Source of the DNA: an uncultured Candidatus Poseidoniales archaeon
GTDB lineage: Archaea > Thermoplasmatota > Poseidoniia > Poseidoniales > Poseidoniaceae
Assembly (NCBI GenBank): GCA_000246735.1
Contig: CM001443.1
Span: 496,129 to 554,971, forward strand
Direction: 5' to 3'
Length of the DNA stretch: 58,843 bases
Shown: one piece after another, positions 5,712 to 29,393 of the stretch
Layout of the letters: each line of letters starts with the position of its first letter
Position numbering within the stretch: position 1 is the first letter of the stretch
Translations under genes and position numbers: made by a program
The notes under the pieces: generated by a model
What the model saw: only the letters and a program-made list of their open reading frames with translations
Told to the model about the DNA's origin: nothing
The model's database searches: none

Positions 5712-6185
5712 TCAATCATCTGAGAGCAACATGCCAGCATGAATCTTGAGATGAGCCACAAGGGGTGATAACAATCGGCCGCACGTGCGCCCATGCTCAC
5801 TGAGAACGTATGCGACCCGAACAGGTGGGCCCTCCTCGACCTGGCGCAACACAAGCCCTTCTTCAACCAAAAACCGCAATTTATCCGAAAGGGTGCGAGA
5901 GGAGATGCCTTGGAGCAGGCTCTTCATTTGGTTAAACCGCCGCGGTCCAGCGATGTAAAGAGCAGTGAGGATCTCAGTGGTCCAGCGTGAACCAAACACA
6001 TGCAATGCTTCATCTGCGCGACGAACTTCCCAATGGAGCGTGTTTGCTTCCCCTCCCCCAGTTTGGTTGCCGAGGATGCTTCGGATGTCGCCACCGTTGG
6101 TGATGGTCGATTCGATTGAGGCGCGGACGGCCTGGTATTCGGAGCGTGGAATTTTGAGCGGTGGCGTGGACATATTTACTCCCAT
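5712..6185 (-). CDS. HxlR-family transcriptional regulator
   Basis: The central region carries the HxlR signature: a DEALHVFGSRWTTEILTALY helix, a GPRRFNQMKS segment, and then ISSRTLSDKLRFLVEEGLV as the recognition helix, followed by a wing with VAYVLSEHGR. HxlR proteins are small dimeric winged-helix regulators that often act next to their targets. ATG at 6185 is the longest start. An ATG at 6173 is preceded by GGGAG at a good distance and is an equally good choice, giving 153 residues. The gene diverges from the glycosyltransferase gene, whose TATA box lies about 70 bases away, so it may regulate that gene. This last point is inference. Confidence 0.82.
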   Translation of the reverse strand: MGVNMSTPPLKIPRSEYQAVRASIESTITNGGDIRSILGNQTGGGEANTLHWEVRRADEALHVFGSRWTTEILTALYIAGPRRFNQMKSLLQGISSRTLSDKLRFLVEEGLVLRQVEEGPPVRVAYVLSEHGRTCGRLLSPLVAHLKIHAGMLLSDD

Positions 6186-18114: not shown

Positions 18115-19125
18115 TCACCCAGCCATCGGCAAATGCTTCACTGAAGGCGCAATTCCCAAATCTTCCGGGAAGAACATCGTCGCTTCTGGAATTGGGATTG
18201 GTGAAATCTCCCTTCCAACGAGGGCCACCCTGCTCGGGCGGGAGTCAGAGAGCACTTCTCGGTTGGTGAGGGGCGCGATTTTGTTGGAGAAATCCATGAT
18301 GTCTTCATGACTTGGCATGTTCTCAATGCTCAAGTTTTCTCGGCTGTGGCCAACGAACACGTAGCCCTTGTTTTCGATGTAGTCTGGATCGGCTCGGTTG
18401 TCCAATGCTGCAAACTGCTCAATGTGCTTGTCTGACATGTTGATGCCTTTCATCAAGGTATGACGTGCCACAATTCGTGTGTCGAGTGAAGGCAAAAGGT
18501 CGATCGTCTCTTCGAATTTATCCCAGGCATTGCCGTTCCACTTCGGCTTACACACCGCATCGAAGACTTCCTTGTTGGGTGCATCGACAGAGACATACAA
18601 CTGGGTTGGCAGTGTATCCAACTTCTCAAGCACCTTTGGTAGGGTCCCGTTGGTGACCAGCATCGTCGTCATGCCGTGCTTGTGGCACAGGTCCATGTAT
18701 TCTGAGAGGCGAGTGTAGAGGGTAGGTTCTCCATTGAGTGAAATGGCGACGTGCTTTGGGTTTTGGGCGTCCAACCACTTTTCACGAGGCACCTTTGGGT
18801 TGCCACCAAAGCCAGACAGCAACCGACGTTGAGCTCGCACCGATTCATACAGCAACTCAAGTGGGTCCTGGTCGGTTAACTCAAGCGTGTCCATATGTGG
18901 TTCTCGCCAGCAGTAGGTGCAAGCAAGGTTGCACTGATCGACCACGGGTGACATCTGCATGCAGTTGTGGCTTGCGATACCGTAGAATTTGCCTTTGTAG
19001 CATTGACGGTCCCGCAGGAGTGATTCTTTGGTCCAGTGGCAAGTTTTGACCCCTCCATGTTCACCAACGATGTGGTAGCGTTGCTTCTGCAATTTTGCCT
19101 TCAGTTGTGGATCCATGCCTGCCAT
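18115..19125 (-). CDS. taw1: 4-demethylwyosine synthase (Taw1/TYW1), radical SAM
   Basis: This 336-residue enzyme makes the tricyclic 4-demethylwyosine at position 37 of tRNA-Phe from m1G and pyruvate. It carries the radical-SAM cluster motif C-x3-C-x2-C in CNLACTYCWREP. Further family marks are VDQ before it, a SLNGEPTLY segment, VTNG, and LYVSVDAPN with CKPKWNGN. The N-terminal HGGVKTCHW and HNCMQMSP regions hold the extra cysteines typical of TYW1 for a second cluster. The start is ATG at 19125, preceded by GGGTGAG. ATG 19116 is an alternative. The second enzyme of the pathway, TYW2, is encoded at 40285-41463. The gene's 3' end points towards the tRNA-like remnant. Confidence 0.93.
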   Translation of the reverse strand: MAGMDPQLKAKLQKQRYHIVGEHGGVKTCHWTKESLLRDRQCYKGKFYGIASHNCMQMSPVVDQCNLACTYCWREPHMDTLELTDQDPLELLYESVRAQRRLLSGFGGNPKVPREKWLDAQNPKHVAISLNGEPTLYTRLSEYMDLCHKHGMTTMLVTNGTLPKVLEKLDTLPTQLYVSVDAPNKEVFDAVCKPKWNGNAWDKFEETIDLLPSLDTRIVARHTLMKGINMSDKHIEQFAALDNRADPDYIENKGYVFVGHSRENLSIENMPSHEDIMDFSNKIAPLTNREVLSDSRPSRVALVGREISPIPIPEATMFFPEDLGIAPSVKHLPMAG

Positions 19126-19224
19126 GTGCTCACCCTCAGAGGCCTGCTTCCACTGTTGGGCGAAGCCCGGTCGGGAACGGCTCAGATAGGCCATCCTCGA
19201 AGCGCCTTGGTATCAATGGCTCGC

Positions 19225-21348: not shown

Positions 21349-21369
21349 GTGTTGTTCTAACCAAATTCA

Positions 21370-21402
21370 GTATATATCTAAAACCATGTATAATCTATAT
21401 AG
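21370..21402. promoter_or_regulatory. Divergent TATA elements between the phosphate permease and PhoU-type regulator
   Basis: GTATATAT at 21370-21377 is the TATA box for the minus-strand permease, 26 nt from its ATG. TGTATAAT and CTATATAG at 21388-21402 serve the plus-strand regulator, 30-40 nt from its ATG. The repeated ATATCTA and AATCTATA words and the palindromic CTATATAG could be operator half-sites for the AbrB-type domain of the regulator. That part is inference. Confidence 0.55.
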
Positions 21403-21428
21403 GGGTATTTATTCCGGAGAATGTTCGT

Positions 21429-22469
21429 ATGTCGCTCGGGGAAGGAAAAAACGAAGTTCGGAAACTTCAGTCAACAGGTGGCAGCACGTTCACAGTCAGC
21501 CTCCCAAAGCCGTGGATTTTGGCACAAGGTCTTGCGGCGCGTGACTCGTTGCGAGTGGACTGGCGGCCGAGCGGTGCTTTGCGGATCACGCCTTTAGATT
21601 CAAAAGAGCATGTGCTTCACAAGGCGTATTTTTCAACAAAAAATCTACCCGAAGACAGTCTACATGACCACTTGATGGGCGCCTACATATCGGGTTCCGA
21701 TGAAATTCATATCGAACATCGAACTGATGAGGCGAAGGAGGTGAGTGTCCAAGTGAGACGGTTCCTGCGAAGCACCCGTGGCTTTGAAATCATGGATGAA
21801 TCAGACAACAGCATTCAACTCAAGTGCCTGATGAATGCAGGCGACATGCCACTTCACGCAAGCCTCAACCGCATGTACTTGCAAGTAACTTCGTTAACGA
21901 GGGACATCATCAGTGTGTTTGAAGGGGAAAGCCGTTCGTACATCACAGATGCCGAAGAACGAGAGAATGAGGTCGATGCGCTGTTGTACTTGATTGACCG
22001 CCAGGTTCGAATCCTCCTCGATTCGCATGCTGTAGCCACACAATTGAATCTCACTCGGACGCAAGCTGTCGAGTATGCCAACCTTGCCAGATCGCTCGAA
22101 CGCATGATGGACCATTCATTCAGCATCGCTAAACTTGTCATCGAGCATCCACAAATCACAAAGAACATGATCAGCATGACGCCTTTGGAACAACTACCAA
22201 TCTGGCAAGGGAGTTTGAAAGAACTGATGATCAACATCCGTACACGCGACTCAACTCGCATTGAAGCGGCTCGCTCGGACCTCAAAGAAGCACAACGACG
22301 GTTGCTCAAACACGAACAAAATGTCCTTGAACACCACCGTTCAAACGAGTGGATGGCCTTTGATTTACGCCTCTCGGAGTCAGTACGGCGCTTGTGTGCA
22401 TACGCTCGTGATTTTGGTGAAATTTTGCTCAACATGAAGGTATTCAGTGAACTGCGACGCATTGATTGA
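21429..22469 (+). CDS. PhoU-family phosphate regulator with N-terminal AbrB-like DNA-binding domain
   Basis: The 346-residue protein begins with a SpoVT/AbrB-like swapped-hairpin domain (RKLQSTGGSTFTVSLPKPWI, then LRVDWRPSGALRITP) in the first 60 residues. A helical PhoU-like domain follows, with repeated pairs of long helices and a typical E/D-rich motif (AEERENEVDALLYLIDRQV). Archaeal AbrB-PhoU proteins are thought to control phosphate transporter genes. Position opposite the PiT-PhoU gene supports that role. ATG 21429 is chosen because GGAGA precedes it by 8 nt, it lies the right distance from the TATA elements, and the DNA-binding domain starts there. The longer frame from 21228 crosses the divergent gene. 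Confidence 0.85.
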   Translation: MSLGEGKNEVRKLQSTGGSTFTVSLPKPWILAQGLAARDSLRVDWRPSGALRITPLDSKEHVLHKAYFSTKNLPEDSLHDHLMGAYISGSDEIHIEHRTDEAKEVSVQVRRFLRSTRGFEIMDESDNSIQLKCLMNAGDMPLHASLNRMYLQVTSLTRDIISVFEGESRSYITDAEERENEVDALLYLIDRQVRILLDSHAVATQLNLTRTQAVEYANLARSLERMMDHSFSIAKLVIEHPQITKNMISMTPLEQLPIWQGSLKELMINIRTRDSTRIEAARSDLKEAQRRLLKHEQNVLEHHRSNEWMAFDLRLSESVRRLCAYARDFGEILLNMKVFSELRRID

Positions 22470-22592
22470 AAGGTGTTATGAAAAACATCTACTTTTATTT
22501 TTGCACCTATGTGTTGGCGAATTCACCTCTGGTTGATATAGGGCCGGTTACAAATATACACTGAAGACAAACAAGCTTCAGAGGCAACACAC

Positions 22593-22757
22593 ATGGACAT
22601 TGAACTAGAAACATACGTCGACGCAGTAATGGATCAGCAAAACCATCGCAATGGTATATTTGCGAACGTCATGGAGACCATCATCCATGCAATTGCTGAT
22701 TATCGAGCAACACCGAACGCACGTGGAACATTCCACAACGATGGGGGTCAACTCTGA
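22593..22757 (+). CDS. Microprotein A of a tandem paralogous pair (54 residues)
   Basis: The frame encodes a 54-residue acidic protein whose first part, (L)ETYVDAVMDQQNHRNGIFA, closely matches the start of the next small frame (LSSYVDSVMDLQETHNGIFR). This internal homology, a GAGGCAAC ribosome-binding-like element 5 nt before the ATG, TATA-like AAATATAC at 22552-22559, and the TGATG overlap with the next gene argue that it is real. No family is recognised. The predicted helix is amphipathic and soluble. Confidence 0.6.
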   Translation: MDIELETYVDAVMDQQNHRNGIFANVMETIIHAIADYRATPNARGTFHNDGGQL

Positions 22758-22873
22758 TGGACGCCTACCTCTCTTCGTACGTTGACTCGGTCATGGATCT
22801 CCAAGAAACACACAACGGAATTTTCAGGCCTTCATTTTTCACCCGACTTTTCCGATTCTTATCGGGCCAGTGA
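22757..22873 (+). CDS. Microprotein B of a tandem paralogous pair (38 residues)
   Basis: This 38-residue frame starts at the ATG in the TGATG overlap with microprotein A and repeats its Y-V-D-x-V-M-D-x-Q-x3-N-G-I-F pattern. It then diverges into a basic aromatic tail (FFTRLFRFL). It ends 38 bases before the AlkB-like gene and may be cotranscribed with it. The function is unknown. Regulation of the membrane hydroxylase would be a guess. Confidence 0.55.
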   Translation: MDAYLSSYVDSVMDLQETHNGIFRPSFFTRLFRFLSGQ

Positions 22874-22910
22874 TTGCAAAGCCCCTTAACCTACCCATCG
22901 ATGAAGCCAC

Positions 22911-23882
22911 ATGAACAAGTGGCAACCCCATCTGCTTGGGCTCGTGGCTCCGGTCATGACCTTGGCCAGCTTGATGATTGGTTCGTGGTGGATGGGGCTG
23001 ACCATTGTCACCGTTCTCGTGGTGTACCCACTGATCGAACTCGTTGCGGGTAAAAGCGCCCAGACGAACCCCCTGCAAGAAGGTCGAGCGCACAACGTCA
23101 TTCTCCATCTTCATGGGCTCCTCGTACCGATTCTTGTCCTCGCCCTCCTTTGGCGAGTTTCACTCGACGGACTGAATGGTTTTGTCTGGTTGGGTATTAT
23201 TTCGACTGGCTTGAGCACCGGTGGTTCAGGTATCGTTGCTGCCCATGAACTTGGCCACCGCCGCCTGCGGTCAACGAGTTGGTGGTTGGCTCGACTGGAT
23301 TTATTCAGCGTTCTCTACTTGCACTTCACGGTTGAACACAATCATACGCATCACCGACATTGGGCCCGCCCGGTTGATCCAACCTCCTCTCCCTGGGGGC
23401 GAAACCTCTACTTCCATGTGCTGCGAACGGTGCCGTTACAAATTCGCGGAGCATGGAAGGCTCGACCAAAAGACACCGGCCGCTCGTTGGCACTCGAGGC
23501 GACGTTCTTGGTGTGCCTTGGCGCGTACAGTCCAGTCCTTGTGTTGGCCTTTATCGCTCAGGCCGCCGTTGCCATTTTCCTTGTCGAATATGTCAATTAT
23601 CTCCAACACCATGGTCTGCAACGAGGTCCAGATGAGCGACCAAATGCCACGCATGCTTGGGAAAGCCGTCATCGCTGGTCACGTTGGACCCTCCTTGAAC
23701 TTCCCCTTCACCCATCGCATCATCTCAAAGCCAGCACGCCTTATCATCGGTTGGATGCCCACGATGAAGCACCACAATTGCCGTTTGGATACTACGGGAT
23801 GTTCTGGGCAGCTCTTATCCCTCCATTGTTCACCAATATCATGCAAAAAAGCGCTCAAAGGGGCAGTTCGGCTGAGTCTTGA
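22911..23882 (+). CDS. alkB: AlkB-type membrane di-iron alkane/fatty-acid hydroxylase
   Basis: The 323-residue protein has about six membrane helices and all four histidine groups of AlkB-family alkane 1-monooxygenases. These are HELGHRR (box 1), EHNHTHHRH (box 2), NYLQHHGLQR (the HYG-type box) and HPSHHLKASTPY (box 3). The enzyme should hydroxylate the terminal carbon of a hydrocarbon or lipid chain using oxygen and electrons from a rubredoxin or ferredoxin. Desaturase relatives lack the HYG-type box, which favours hydroxylase. The N-terminus starts directly with a membrane helix at ATG 22911. No rubredoxin gene is adjacent. The fused beta-oxidation enzyme at 7532-9622 could use the products, as inference. 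Confidence 0.85.
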   Translation: MNKWQPHLLGLVAPVMTLASLMIGSWWMGLTIVTVLVVYPLIELVAGKSAQTNPLQEGRAHNVILHLHGLLVPILVLALLWRVSLDGLNGFVWLGIISTGLSTGGSGIVAAHELGHRRLRSTSWWLARLDLFSVLYLHFTVEHNHTHHRHWARPVDPTSSPWGRNLYFHVLRTVPLQIRGAWKARPKDTGRSLALEATFLVCLGAYSPVLVLAFIAQAAVAIFLVEYVNYLQHHGLQRGPDERPNATHAWESRHRWSRWTLLELPLHPSHHLKASTPYHRLDAHDEAPQLPFGYYGMFWAALIPPLFTNIMQKSAQRGSSAES

Positions 23883-25044: not shown

Positions 25045-25773
25045 ATGCTAGAAGTCACCAATCTCACGAAGGCCTTCGGGTCAGGCTCCAATAAACTGCA
25101 AGTCCTGAAGGGTGTCGATATGAACATCAAGCAAGGTGAAATGGTTGCCTTGATGGGCCCATCTGGCTCTGGGAAATCCACTTTACTGAACATCATTGGC
25201 GGTCTTCTTGCTGGCGACAAAGGTTCAATCGTTCTAGGTGACAAAACATATGGCACAAAGAATCCTTCCAATGTTGTCGATGTCCGCAGGGACTCAGTCG
25301 GCTGGATTTTCCAAGATTTCCACCTGCTTGATAACCTCACGGCGGTTGACAACGTGGCTATGGCCCTCGAGCTTTCGGGGATGCCTGCTCATGAAGCAGA
25401 GCAGGCTGCCGAAGTCGCATTGACCAAGGTAGGACTGAGCGATCGTATGCATCACGTACCCGACCAACTCTCAGGTGGTCAACAACAACGTGTGGCCATT
25501 GCTCGTGCCATTGCAGGAAACCGTCCGTTGCTCTTGGCGGATGAGCCAACAGGCAACCTCGATATTGCAAGTGGCAAAGAGGTGCTTCAGTTGTTCAAAG
25601 ATTTGTGCCACGACGAGGTGAACCCCATCTCGATTCTGATGGTCACGCACGATCCCGATTTGGCATCGAATGCTGATCGGATGCTGCTTTTGAACGATGG
25701 CAAAACCGAGGCGTCCGACATCAGGTCTGCCTGGGGCTTGGATGAGGATGCTCAAGGGGGCGAAGAAGAATGA
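25045..25773 (+). CDS. ABC transporter ATP-binding protein (LolD/MacB type)
   Basis: The 242-residue ATPase has Walker A GPSGSGKST, a Q-loop in WIFQDFHLL, the signature LSGGQQQR, Walker B LLLADEPTGNLD with the TGNLD typical of the LolD/MacB/FtsE subfamily, and a switch His in MVTHD. It powers the FtsX-type permease encoded next, with which it overlaps by ATGA. Its C-terminal tail is acidic (QGGEEE). Such pairs move lipoproteins, peptides or surface material outward and are mechanotransmission machines, not importers. Confidence 0.93.
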   Translation: MLEVTNLTKAFGSGSNKLQVLKGVDMNIKQGEMVALMGPSGSGKSTLLNIIGGLLAGDKGSIVLGDKTYGTKNPSNVVDVRRDSVGWIFQDFHLLDNLTAVDNVAMALELSGMPAHEAEQAAEVALTKVGLSDRMHHVPDQLSGGQQQRVAIARAIAGNRPLLLADEPTGNLDIASGKEVLQLFKDLCHDEVNPISILMVTHDPDLASNADRMLLLNDGKTEASDIRSAWGLDEDAQGGEEE

Positions 25774-28700
25774 GTCAAGAAAAGAAAACGCTCGAGTTGG
25801 TCGATTCCGATTTCTCACCTTCACAAAGCCTTGCAAAGCGCATTATGCACAAAGTCACAGAGACGCCAGGACAACTTCGTCTTGCAGGTCTAAGCGCATG
25901 GCGCGGTAAAGAGCGCGGCCTTGCTGTGATTGCTGGTGTGTTTCTCGCTTCTCTTGTCATCACAACGGTGCTCGCGTACGGCGTTGGTCTGTCTCAGTTA
26001 TTCTTTGAAGAATCTCTTTCGAACGAACCATTCGATGCAAAGATCGAGTACGCTCGAACGCCTGTGGAAAACAGCACAGGTTGGTCAAACAACACAACCA
26101 CCATGACGAATGTGTGTGCTGAGTTGATGGATGAATTCACGGAATTCAATGATTGTACGCTTGTGCTCGGCAGGCAAGGCATTCACAGTGGTGGTTTCTT
26201 TAACCAAGATTTCATTGTCGCTCAACCACTTGAGATGCTGGCCATCACAGACGATGCAAACCCGTACTGGGGCAACGTAACCTTCGATTATCCTGAACTC
26301 GAAGACGCCGGACCGCCAATTTCCTCAAGCAGAGCCGTACGGTTCCTCGGTCCCGGAGCGTTTGATGGCGTGTTTGCAGATCGGCTCGGTGAAAATGTCA
26401 TCGCAGGTTTTGGTGAATGGCCAAGTCCTGAGGACGCTCGTACACAACGCGGTGTTATTCTTCCTTCAACAGTTGCTTCAGAAGCCAAAGCCAATGTTGG
26501 CGATGTGCTTGACTCGCTCACCTTTGCTTATGTGGTCGACGAATCGACCTTGCTCGAAGCGACCGTGACCAACGAAAACTGCGACGGCGAAGTCACGCCA
26601 GAACAGAATGAAATGGTCTACTGCCGCATGCCAATGACGGCTACCAACCTCACCGTTCTCGGTATCTACGAGCCGTGGGATCTTGGAAACCCGACCCTCG
26701 GACCGAATCCAATTTTCACCACTTGGGAAGTGTTGGAAGAAACCCAACGAGCCGCCCTCATGGACAACGATCACATGTACCTCGGCGTGACGATTGACCG
26801 AGGGCAACTCCCGACAAGTTCCACCGCCGATGCAGCAGAATGGTTGGAAGACCTTGGAACTCGAGTTCAAGACGGAAACTACACCGACGAAGGTGTGGAA
26901 TTGTACTACACCGACATCGTGAGCGGAACCATCACCTTCCTCAACATCTTCCTTGGTTTGATTCAGATTTTCGATTACATCATTATGATTCCAATCGTTA
27001 TTCTTTCCATTTCTGTCCTGATCTACGGATTGGTGCTTTCGCTCGAGCAGCGGCGGAGGGAAGTGAGCATTCACCGTGTGATTGGTGCGGACGGTCAAAG
27101 TTTGCAAAGCATGGTGTTGTTGGAGTTATTCGTCATGTCTTCTGTGGCGTGGTTGGCTGGTTACTTGCTGGCCCTTTTCGCTGTTCCAATCGTTCTTTCA
27201 GCGGTCGGGTTCATGGAATTTAGAACGGGCGACTTCGATGTCAACCCGACGCTGGGCATCGGTTCAACACTGTTCACAGCGATCACAACACTGGGGCTTG
27301 CGCTCCTGTTCGGACGAAGCCGTACCCGTGATTTCATCGCCCTTGAAATTGAAGAAGGGGTTCGTAGAACAACCTCAAAATCTGAACCAAAGCGATGGCT
27401 TCACTGGCTTTCGTTCTTGTTCGGCATGCTGGCGGTTTCCGATGCATGGCTCAAACTTAATGGAAGCGAAGATGGATTGAATTTAAATTTCTTCATCAAC
27501 GGTTTGCTTGGTCTCTTTGGACCATTTGCACTCTGGATTGGTGGTGCTCTGCTCCTTGGACGGATCGGGGCACGCGGTCCTCAAATCATGCAGTTGTTGT
27601 TTGGAAGAACCCCATTGCTGAACGACGTCAAGCGTGGTCTGAAGGGTTCGGGCTCCGCTGAATCTGTCAATCGCCTTGCCGTCATCATGATTCTGACGCT
27701 TTCGATTGTTACGCTTGCTGCGGTTCAAGGATACACTGGAACGCTTGTTGATGAGAAGACGGTCGATGCAACCGTCGGCGCTGATTTACAAATCACGCTT
27801 GAACAACAATACTCGGAAGCCCAAGTTCTTGACTTGGTCTCAAACTTCACGAACGCAGGTGTCAGTGCGAAAGCAACGACTGTGCCAAGTCTGTTCCTGA
27901 ACGACATCAACGGCGGCGATAAGTTGCTCACATGGGTCCTTCTCGATGATAACGAAGACGTCTTGCGGTGGAGTGAACAAGCGATACCGGGCGACAATTC
28001 AAACAAGGCCATGGCTGCCTATCGAGCTGGAGGCTTCTCAGCTGGTGAAGACGCCGCTTACTCGCTCGACATTGCAGGTTCTGGAAGAGGGGATGAGAAT
28101 CAGTTGAACGATCAACTGCTCAAACCAACCGATCGAAAGAGCGAAAACATCACCTTCCTTTGGGAGAAGTTGGAATTTAACTTCAGTTCCGGTGGGACGA
28201 ATGAACCCGACCCAACCGCTCTTTTTGTTGCTTATTCCTCCTTAATGGAAGGCGATTGGTCTGGATTGAACCTCTCAGGTCAAGACTTGAGCGGCCGTGA
28301 TTTCGGCCCTGTTGACCTCACTGGTGCCGATCTTTCCAACGCCAACCTGGCAGGTGCCAACCTCGGTCAAGCGCTTCTCTTCGACACCAACCTCGACGGC
28401 GCTGACCTTTCAGGAGCCAACCTCAAGGAAGCCGTCATCGTCAATTTCATGGAAGGTTCGATGGAAGGAACGAACTTCATTGGCGCAGACTTAACCGATG
28501 TCTTTGGTTTCGCAGACTTATCCACCGCGACCCTTGGTAACGCCACCTGCCCTGACGGTACATCCGCCACGGACACAGCGTGTGCATCAGGTCTGTCTCA
28601 GATCCCGCCCCCATTGGCAGCACCTTTGTTCCTAGCAGACACCACTGTTGAGATCGTCATCACTCCATTCACCGTGCCGATGGATTACATCGGCGTGCAC

Positions 28701-29393
28701 GAATACATACCCGGAGTCAGCGCTGCTGCCATGAGTTCATCCTTGATCATCGGAGAATCTTCATGGTTGGCCCTCGTCGGTTCAGACACGGTCGCAAATT
28801 ACTCCTCAACCACTTGGATTGTTGAAGTTGAGGGCCTCGAAGGCGATCCTCTCGAGGCGCTTGCCTCCACCATGTCGGCGGACTTCCGGGTTTCTGACGT
28901 GGTTGACTGGTCCAGTTCCCACAAACAGGTTGAGCGAAACGGCGGTTTGATCTTCGGAACACCGGGTCTTCTTTCGCTTCAATTCGTCGTTGCCAGTGTT
29001 GCAGCAGTTGCCTCGAGTTTCGTCTTCTTGTCGCTGGTGTTGAGCCAACGGCAAAAGGAGTTGGCGGTCTTGCAGGCAATCGGTGCATCCCCGAACCAAA
29101 TCATTCGGTTGGTGTTGTTCGAGATTCTTTCGATTGTGATGGTCTCCATGGCGCTTGGAATCGTTCTTGGAATCGGTGTAGCGTTGTCGTTCAACGGCTT
29201 CTTCGACATCTTCGGATTCATCTTCCAAATCTTTGCAGGTGAATCGACCACGATCACAAGGACGCTGGTGTACCCATGGACACAACTGTTGTTCGTGTCT
29301 TTGTCAGTGTTTGCCGCTGTGGTCGTTGCGTTGTTGGTGACCACTCGCAGGGCGCTGAAGTCGGACTTAGCCAGTGTGCTCAAGGGGGAGTGA
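25770..29393 (+). CDS. FtsX/MacB-type ABC permease with an extracellular pentapeptide-repeat domain
   Basis: The 1207-residue permease has an N-terminal membrane helix (near residues 50-75), a large extracellular MacB-like domain, and a first FtsX core of three or four helices near residues 390-520. Further helices occur near 560-660. A second extracellular domain and a final three-helix FtsX core (about 1070-1205, with LQAIGASPNQIIRLVLFE) follow, so it is a fused double permease. The second extracellular domain contains a pentapeptide-repeat segment at residues 826-927, unusual for this family. It is cotranslated with the first ATPase by ATGA overlap and followed after three bases by a second ATPase. 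The substrate is unknown. Lipoprotein or surface-polymer handling is the family norm. Confidence 0.88.
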   Translation: MSQEKKTLELVDSDFSPSQSLAKRIMHKVTETPGQLRLAGLSAWRGKERGLAVIAGVFLASLVITTVLAYGVGLSQLFFEESLSNEPFDAKIEYARTPVENSTGWSNNTTTMTNVCAELMDEFTEFNDCTLVLGRQGIHSGGFFNQDFIVAQPLEMLAITDDANPYWGNVTFDYPELEDAGPPISSSRAVRFLGPGAFDGVFADRLGENVIAGFGEWPSPEDARTQRGVILPSTVASEAKANVGDVLDSLTFAYVVDESTLLEATVTNENCDGEVTPEQNEMVYCRMPMTATNLTVLGIYEPWDLGNPTLGPNPIFTTWEVLEETQRAALMDNDHMYLGVTIDRGQLPTSSTADAAEWLEDLGTRVQDGNYTDEGVELYYTDIVSGTITFLNIFLGLIQIFDYIIMIPIVILSISVLIYGLVLSLEQRRREVSIHRVIGADGQSLQSMVLLELFVMSSVAWLAGYLLALFAVPIVLSAVGFMEFRTGDFDVNPTLGIGSTLFTAITTLGLALLFGRSRTRDFIALEIEEGVRRTTSKSEPKRWLHWLSFLFGMLAVSDAWLKLNGSEDGLNLNFFINGLLGLFGPFALWIGGALLLGRIGARGPQIMQLLFGRTPLLNDVKRGLKGSGSAESVNRLAVIMILTLSIVTLAAVQGYTGTLVDEKTVDATVGADLQITLEQQYSEAQVLDLVSNFTNAGVSAKATTVPSLFLNDINGGDKLLTWVLLDDNEDVLRWSEQAIPGDNSNKAMAAYRAGGFSAGEDAAYSLDIAGSGRGDENQLNDQLLKPTDRKSENITFLWEKLEFNFSSGGTNEPDPTALFVAYSSLMEGDWSGLNLSGQDLSGRDFGPVDLTGADLSNANLAGANLGQALLFDTNLDGADLSGANLKEAVIVNFMEGSMEGTNFIGADLTDVFGFADLSTATLGNATCPDGTSATDTACASGLSQIPPPLAAPLFLADTTVEIVITPFTVPMDYIGVHEYIPGVSAAAMSSSLIIGESSWLALVGSDTVANYSSTTWIVEVEGLEGDPLEALASTMSADFRVSDVVDWSSSHKQVERNGGLIFGTPGLLSLQFVVASVAAVASSFVFLSLVLSQRQKELAVLQAIGASPNQIIRLVLFEILSIVMVSMALGIVLGIGVALSFNGFFDIFGFIFQIFAGESTTITRTLVYPWTQLLFVSLSVFAAVVVALLVTTRRALKSDLASVLKGE
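28245..28550 (+). repeat. Pentapeptide-repeat coding segment inside the permease gene
   Basis: The translation shows about 15 consecutive five-residue units of the A(D/N)LxX type (for example GADLSNANLAGANLG and DGADLSGANLKEA). They should fold as a right-handed quadrilateral beta-helix of about four turns. At the DNA level the units share gcc-ga/aa-ctt-type words but are not identical, so this is an old repeat. Confidence 0.75.

Follow-up and report, generated by a model that had tools for sequence, protein, structure and literature searches.

We conclude that two tiny reading frames lying side by side on the + strand of a Poseidoniaceae genome are a real, unstudied gene pair and more than an accessory to the neighboring hydroxylase gene. 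The frames were analyzed within a stretch of 58,843 nucleotides (the window; G000:C1:496129-554971 of a 2.06-Mb genome in one contig). Gene A (22593..22757) starts at an ATG and encodes a 54-aa microprotein (MDIELETYVDAVMDQQNHRNGIFANVMETIIHAIADYRATPNARGTFHNDGGQL), and gene B (22757..22873), which also starts at an ATG, encodes a 38-aa microprotein (MDAYLSSYVDSVMDLQETHNGIFRPSFFTRLFRFLSGQ). The genes meet in a TGATG junction, in which the A of gene A's TGA stop doubles as the A of gene B's ATG. A preliminary description of this DNA had reported two TGATG-coupled frames of 54 and 38 residues, and both are found exactly where it had placed them. It had also reported a shared core of 15 residues; the core is present in A and in B, but its extent was understated, as the two proteins have in common the 23 residues that run from the initiator methionine (MDxxLxxYVDxVMDxQxxxNGIF, 14/23 identical). 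The local BLOSUM62 score of A against B is 69, compared with 47 for the best of 20,000 shuffles of B (0/20,000 as good). This score and the recovery of the same frames in relatives bear out the proposal that both frames are real and paralogous. The listings returned by a literature search included no paper on the A/B pair.

Relatives were gathered both with the AlkB protein and with A itself, and A and B were located across the loci by HMM scans, which superseded a regular expression scan that missed B frames overlapping A. Pooled dN/dS among relatives is ~0.10 for each gene: 0.103 for A (87 locus pairs) and 0.099 for B (48 locus pairs), in pairs that are 78 to 98.5% identical in codons and that are not independent, since loci are shared among them, the duplicates L010/L024 and L004/L025 are included, and the window is not represented. 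In every one of these pairs (87/87 for A and 48/48 for B), pN is lower than pS. Both frames therefore show the purifying selection on the reading frame that marks a translated microprotein gene, and many relatives retain the core motif in frame. Translation of both A and B, as claimed in the preliminary description, is thus well supported by sequence comparison.

Our locus counts refer to 68 non-identical loci from the window's own family (f1; Poseidoniaceae, MGIIa) with hits of >25 bits. Loci from the sister family (f2) were left out, and five identical loci (L011, L020, L021, L024, and L025) were dropped before counting. The tandem is present in 52 of the 68 loci and a single gene in 16 (one of which, L062, is cut near a contig end), so the pair is not obligatory. 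The start of B falls between -4 and +3 nt from the A stop in every one of the 52 tandem loci, with offsets of -4 (3 loci), -1 (24 loci), 0 (19 loci), +1 (1 locus), +2 (3 loci), and +3 (2 loci). This spacing argues for the translational coupling of A and B that had been proposed.

At an E value of ≤0.1, a match to the B profile is present in 156 of the 318 Poseidoniales (Marine Group II) genomes searched. These comprise 131 f1 genomes and 25 f2 genomes, the f2 matches being weak (E values of 0.003 to 0.1), and some of the f1 genomes searched have no match to the B profile. In a phylum sample of 389 genomes, 79 matched the profile; outside the order there were 11 weak hits (E values of 0.02 to 0.1), several of which fall inside long frames or contain stops. 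A scan of viral contigs with alignment A2 found no relative. Where the ABC-transporter locus could be inspected, no recognizable pair accompanies the TYW1, AlkB, and ABC genes of G073 or the ABC genes of three g11 genomes (G061-G063); losses or strong divergence therefore happen. Judged from sequence, A and B are a Poseidoniaceae (MGIIa) family with divergent, partly split versions in the sister family.

The matches in f2 correspond to genuine small frames. The f2 g8 version is a single 51-aa protein with the C-terminal end ANYRAPAWVQSP, and the f2 g3 version (L083, L085-L087) consists of 22 aa and then 28 aa, with the TTG start of the second frame overlapping the stop. These coupled, split frames are among the shortest conserved frames in this analysis. 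One f2 g10 genome has 25 aa followed, through an ATGA overlap, by a second frame with the same YRAPAW motif, and in one f2 g22 genome a 25-aa frame alone was seen. An element similar to that of f1, GCACCTACGTGTAATC, precedes the f2 g8 peptide in 11/11 retrieved loci with the exact form (L184-L188, L190-L192, and L194-L196). Only the form GCAYCTACGTGTAATC was used in this search, as a looser pattern also picked up numerous unrelated sites at control level; GCATCT variants of the element were read from the listing, and G261 (L090) alone was checked at the locus. In 9/9 f2 loci, the opposite strand upstream carries a gene for an HxlR-type regulator, and in 8/9 a 3-hydroxyacyl-CoA dehydrogenase/enoyl-CoA hydratase gene lies downstream. 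Some f1 loci (L094 and L097) have relatives of both genes close to the pair, and the window carries an HxlR homologue at about 5727-6176. Because f2-type neighbors recur near the f1 pair and an HxlR homologue is in the window, common descent of the f1 and f2 peptides is supported. HxlR was rejected as the dedicated regulator, since its homologue is present in 30/30 genomes searched, including some in which no pair was seen, and so does not track the pair; we retain it solely as a synteny marker.

Upstream of gene A are a conserved operator-like element and a 5'UTR hairpin, neither of which was in the preliminary description. The operator-like element (GCACCTATGTGTTGGCGAATTCACC; 22503..22527, + strand) has the pattern ACACCTATGTGTTGGC-N4-TnACC, and a putative TATA box (GATATAGG; 22535..22542, + strand) follows 16 nt after GTGTTGGC. 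With ≤1 mismatch, CACCTNNGTGTTGGC-N4-TNACC occurs at 55 sites, which are spread over 54 of the 131 family genomes, compared with 2 matches for the backward control. In 30/30 retrieved loci, the tandem A-B lies 69 to 95 nt downstream of the element; two of the other 25 sites (in G164 and G174) are at contig ends. A model of the element, run against the genome from which the window comes, detects this site with an E value of 2.0e-14 and the next best with an E value of 0.21, and a shorter pattern has 1 exact site and 3 one-mismatch sites, no more than the control. The operator-like element is practically unique in the genome. The GTGTTGGC core is found within 170 nt upstream in 51/68 f1 loci, and in all 51 of these the TATA-like box is exactly 16 nt after it. 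The 17 loci that lack the core are mostly single-copy loci and loci of other genera, and one is cut by its contig. Overall, the 100 nt upstream of A have a conservation of 0.669 versus 0.674 for PhoU (matched), which is no higher; they are not more conserved than the corresponding regions of PhoU or PiT but are more conserved than those of TYW1, AlkB, or the ABC gene. That the A/B unit has its own promoter is well supported.

The divergent PiT-PhoU promoter (21349-21428 in the window, and in relatives) is itself strongly conserved, with a motif of its own, CTATATAGG, that is unlike the pair's element. PhoU was considered as a regulator acting through a shared motif and was rejected, as the PhoU upstream regions that we inspected bear a different conserved motif.

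The 5'UTR hairpin (CTGAAG...CTTCAG; 22561..22581, + strand) touches an SD-like AGAGG with its 3' arm, and transcription would start near 22560. In the window, the hairpin folds at -6.4 kcal/mol (z, -2.18). Among 28 g1/g18-type 5'UTRs (25 distinct), standard pairs make up 83.0% of the 7-pair stem, against 62.0% for the best slide; alignments A3 (28 rows) and A4 (32 rows) are of loci hand-picked for looking alike, and MAFFT left some hairpin rows of A3 out of register, which lowered the pair count. The covariation score of 0.367 is reached by 0/500 shuffles. Four of the 7 pairs are changed on both sides, a number that by itself does not exceed the shuffles (4 versus 3.2; 146/500 shuffles). A search of 22300-23000 against Rfam gave 0 matches at an E value of ≤1, which places the region in no known structured RNA family. 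In g14-type loci, judged by eye, the leader is shorter and the hairpin is absent.

The genes that surround the pair vary from locus to locus. In the window, the upstream neighbors are a TYW1 gene (4-demethylwyosine synthase; 18115..19194, - strand; TIGR03972 above cutoff), which is common on the opposite strand, and a gene for a PhoU-domain protein (21429..22469, + strand), a frequent neighbor whose start codon we place from relatives and whose N terminus has a weak, sub-cutoff MazE/AbrB-like match. Downstream are the gene for the AlkB-like membrane hydroxylase (FA_desaturase family; 22911..23882, + strand; PF00487, E value of 6.6e-18), a frequent but not constant neighbor, and that for a LolD/DevA-like ABC ATPase (25045..25773, + strand), which is the usual one. 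In the 68 f1 loci, PhoU is ≤400 nt upstream in 35, is not in 30, and is not assessable in 3. TYW1 is on the other strand ≤600 nt upstream in 20 loci (45 without, 3 not assessable) and ≤5.5 kb upstream in 33 (4 without, 31 not assessable). Both PhoU and AlkB adjoin the genes in 20 loci, PhoU only in 15, AlkB only in 21, and neither in 8, with 4 loci unassessable on one side. PhoU and AlkB combine freely. The promoter and the pair thus behave as a single unit, which remains in one region as its neighbors change.

Because adjacency to AlkB is frequent, the strongest rival explanation is that A and B are co-transcribed with AlkB and serve it as accessory proteins, in its assembly, stability, or regulation. 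AlkB is ≤400 nt downstream in 41 of the 67 assessable f1 loci (1 of the 68 is not assessable), its start in the window (22911) is only 37 nt past the B stop, and it is also adjacent to the gene in loci of g19, g20, and g12 (upstream in the last). However, 26 of the 67 loci keep the pair without an adjacent AlkB, so the tie to the membrane hydroxylase made in the preliminary description describes many loci but not all. An AlkB homologue is present in 237/318 genomes of the order at an E value of ≤1e-20, but among draft genomes AlkB is on a different contig from the pair in G028, G003, G006, G008, and G105, and the AlkB search gave no match in G004, G098, G104, and G109, in which the pair is present. 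Moreover, the f2 genes that we examined stand alone by the HxlR gene, mostly with the dehydrogenase/hydratase gene. Given the 26 loci and the four drafts with no match, AlkB does not co-occur constantly with the pair and was rejected as an obligate partner, and we regard an accessory role as unlikely. In L113 (G109), a short AlkB remnant (63% identity) lies ~340 to 520 nt after the A start, behind an intact pair. With no other AlkB hit in this genome, AlkB is decaying there while the pair stays.

Residues M1, D2, L5, R19, G21, F23, R38, and R44 are invariant in A (30 rows), in which conservation extends well into the C-terminal half, and M1, D2, L5, Q16, G21, and I22 are invariant in B (36 rows). 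The mean net charge of residues 1 to 23 is -2.8 in A and -3.5 in B, and that after residue 23 is +2.4 in A and +4.0 in B; the window's own A tail has a net charge of -1, i.e., is not basic. The hydrophobic moment of residues 3 to 18 is reached by 16%/23% of shuffles on average, and amphipathicity is only mild. AlphaFold2 predicts, with low confidence, a single helix at residues 3 to 39 for A (pLDDT, 66; pTM, ~0.3) and two helices, at residues 3 to 18 and 26 to 36, for B (pLDDT, 64; pTM, ~0.3). Searches of Pfam, NCBIfam, PHROGs, and PDB by sequence gave no match that names a function for A or B. The PHROGs search gave a weak hit (4/36 members; best E value, 0.029) with no function attached, and the PDB matches of alignment A1 are two designed repeat proteins (SAKe) that we judged spurious, as no stretch passes alone.

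Like conserved archaeal and bacterial microproteins of unknown function, A and B are short conserved frames under strong purifying selection without a domain match, but they differ from known conserved small proteins in being coupled tandem paralogues behind a conserved element that is all but unique in the genome. Ribbon-helix-helix repressors (Arc/CopG-like) are near A and B in length, are helical, and sit beside a partly palindromic element. In contrast, the model of A (pLDDT, 66) has no N-terminal strand, there is no ribbon-helix-helix match in Pfam, and the predicted fold does not appear to be the N-terminal beta strand followed by two helices that is diagnostic of that class. The small arginine-rich DUF1127 proteins resemble A and B in length and in tail arginines, but 0/30 A members match Pfam DUF1127 at an E value of ≤10, which gives no ground for including A among them.

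The downstream ABC transporter suggests another reading, in which it would export A and B as a two-peptide system (bacteriocin-like or a signal). A same-strand ABC ATPase is ≤3 kb downstream in 44 of 53 assessable f1 loci (9 without; 15 of the 68 not assessable), it is of the DevA/LolD/bacteriocin-exporter type, and A and B have a common N terminus and different C termini. However, strong purifying selection extends across both A and B, the f2 element and gene stand far from the ABC transporter, neither protein matches Pfam or NCBIfam, and the N termini, as we read them, lack the form of a double-glycine leader. We consider export improbable. More improbable still is a role as leader peptides or upstream ORFs, in which the translation of A and B would control the gene that follows: they are very short and lie 5' of other genes with a hairpin near an SD-like sequence, but the downstream gene varies by lineage or is convergent, and the conservation of residues in A reaches far into its C-terminal half. 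A toxin-antitoxin-like autoregulated pair would fit a coupled dicistron that is preceded by an operator-like element with practically no counterpart elsewhere in the genome, but it is just as hard to credit, given that A and B are paralogues, that 16/68 f1 loci have single copies, and that there is no antitoxin-family match in Pfam or NCBIfam.

Comparison among loci shows that A and B are independent of fixed neighbors, under selection, coupled in their spacing, and equipped with a conserved control region. The explanation that we tentatively prefer, while giving it somewhat less than an even chance, is that they are helical adaptor microproteins forming a self-contained pair under tight regulation, expressed from a separate transcription unit, and not fixed AlkB subunits; the adaptor mechanism is one that we infer. 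In the layout seen in the comparison, the operator-like element and the TATA-like box are ~70 to 95 nt upstream, the hairpin of g1/g18-type loci abuts the SD-like sequence, and gene A is read first and gene B at or beside the stop of A. A dedicated transcription factor may bind the operator-like element; because the element sits just upstream of the TATA-like box, this factor is probably an activator. Coupling would hold the A:B ratio fixed, and the common acidic N-terminal helix could allow A and B to bind each other or a shared partner. The differing tails would then make them two effectors, A with AxxxYRxxxxxRG and B with a short, usually basic second helix, and the two may act as small regulatory adaptors of some partner.

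More broadly, and again with a little less confidence than doubt, A and B may belong to an order-wide Marine Group II microprotein module made up of its own transcription factor site, a hairpin switch in the RNA, and either a single peptide or two coupled paralogues. Such a module would act in trans on a shared cell process, move between neighbor genes as a unit, and have been split (22 + 28 aa), fused (51 to 54 aa), and duplicated in evolution. To our knowledge, no Marine Group II archaeon is in culture and few of the genes of this group have had their functions tested; many of its surface-water lineages keep this compact pair under strong selection. The pair is a clear, small target for peptide mass spectrometry, metatranscriptomics, and DNA pull-downs, and its control region is conserved enough for its regulator to be fished out by means of the DNA. 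It also illustrates how such small coupled paralogues come about, become split, and are fused.

Three further observations concern the surrounding genes and the assemblies. The FtsX-type permease of the window (25770..29393, + strand; 1207 aa) carries pentapeptide repeats at residues ~849 to 886, an unusual combination beside a LolD/DevA-like ATPase. In L020 (the same locus as L092), between 5988 and 6703, PiT is matched by its C-terminal residues 624 to 706 only and PhoU from residue 191 only; the divergent PiT-PhoU promoter and both 5' parts are missing there through deletion or misassembly. Finally, contigs C5 and C37 of one draft genome, G123 (6% contamination given), each carry the operator-like element, the pair, and AlkB, and this double set perhaps represents mixed strains.
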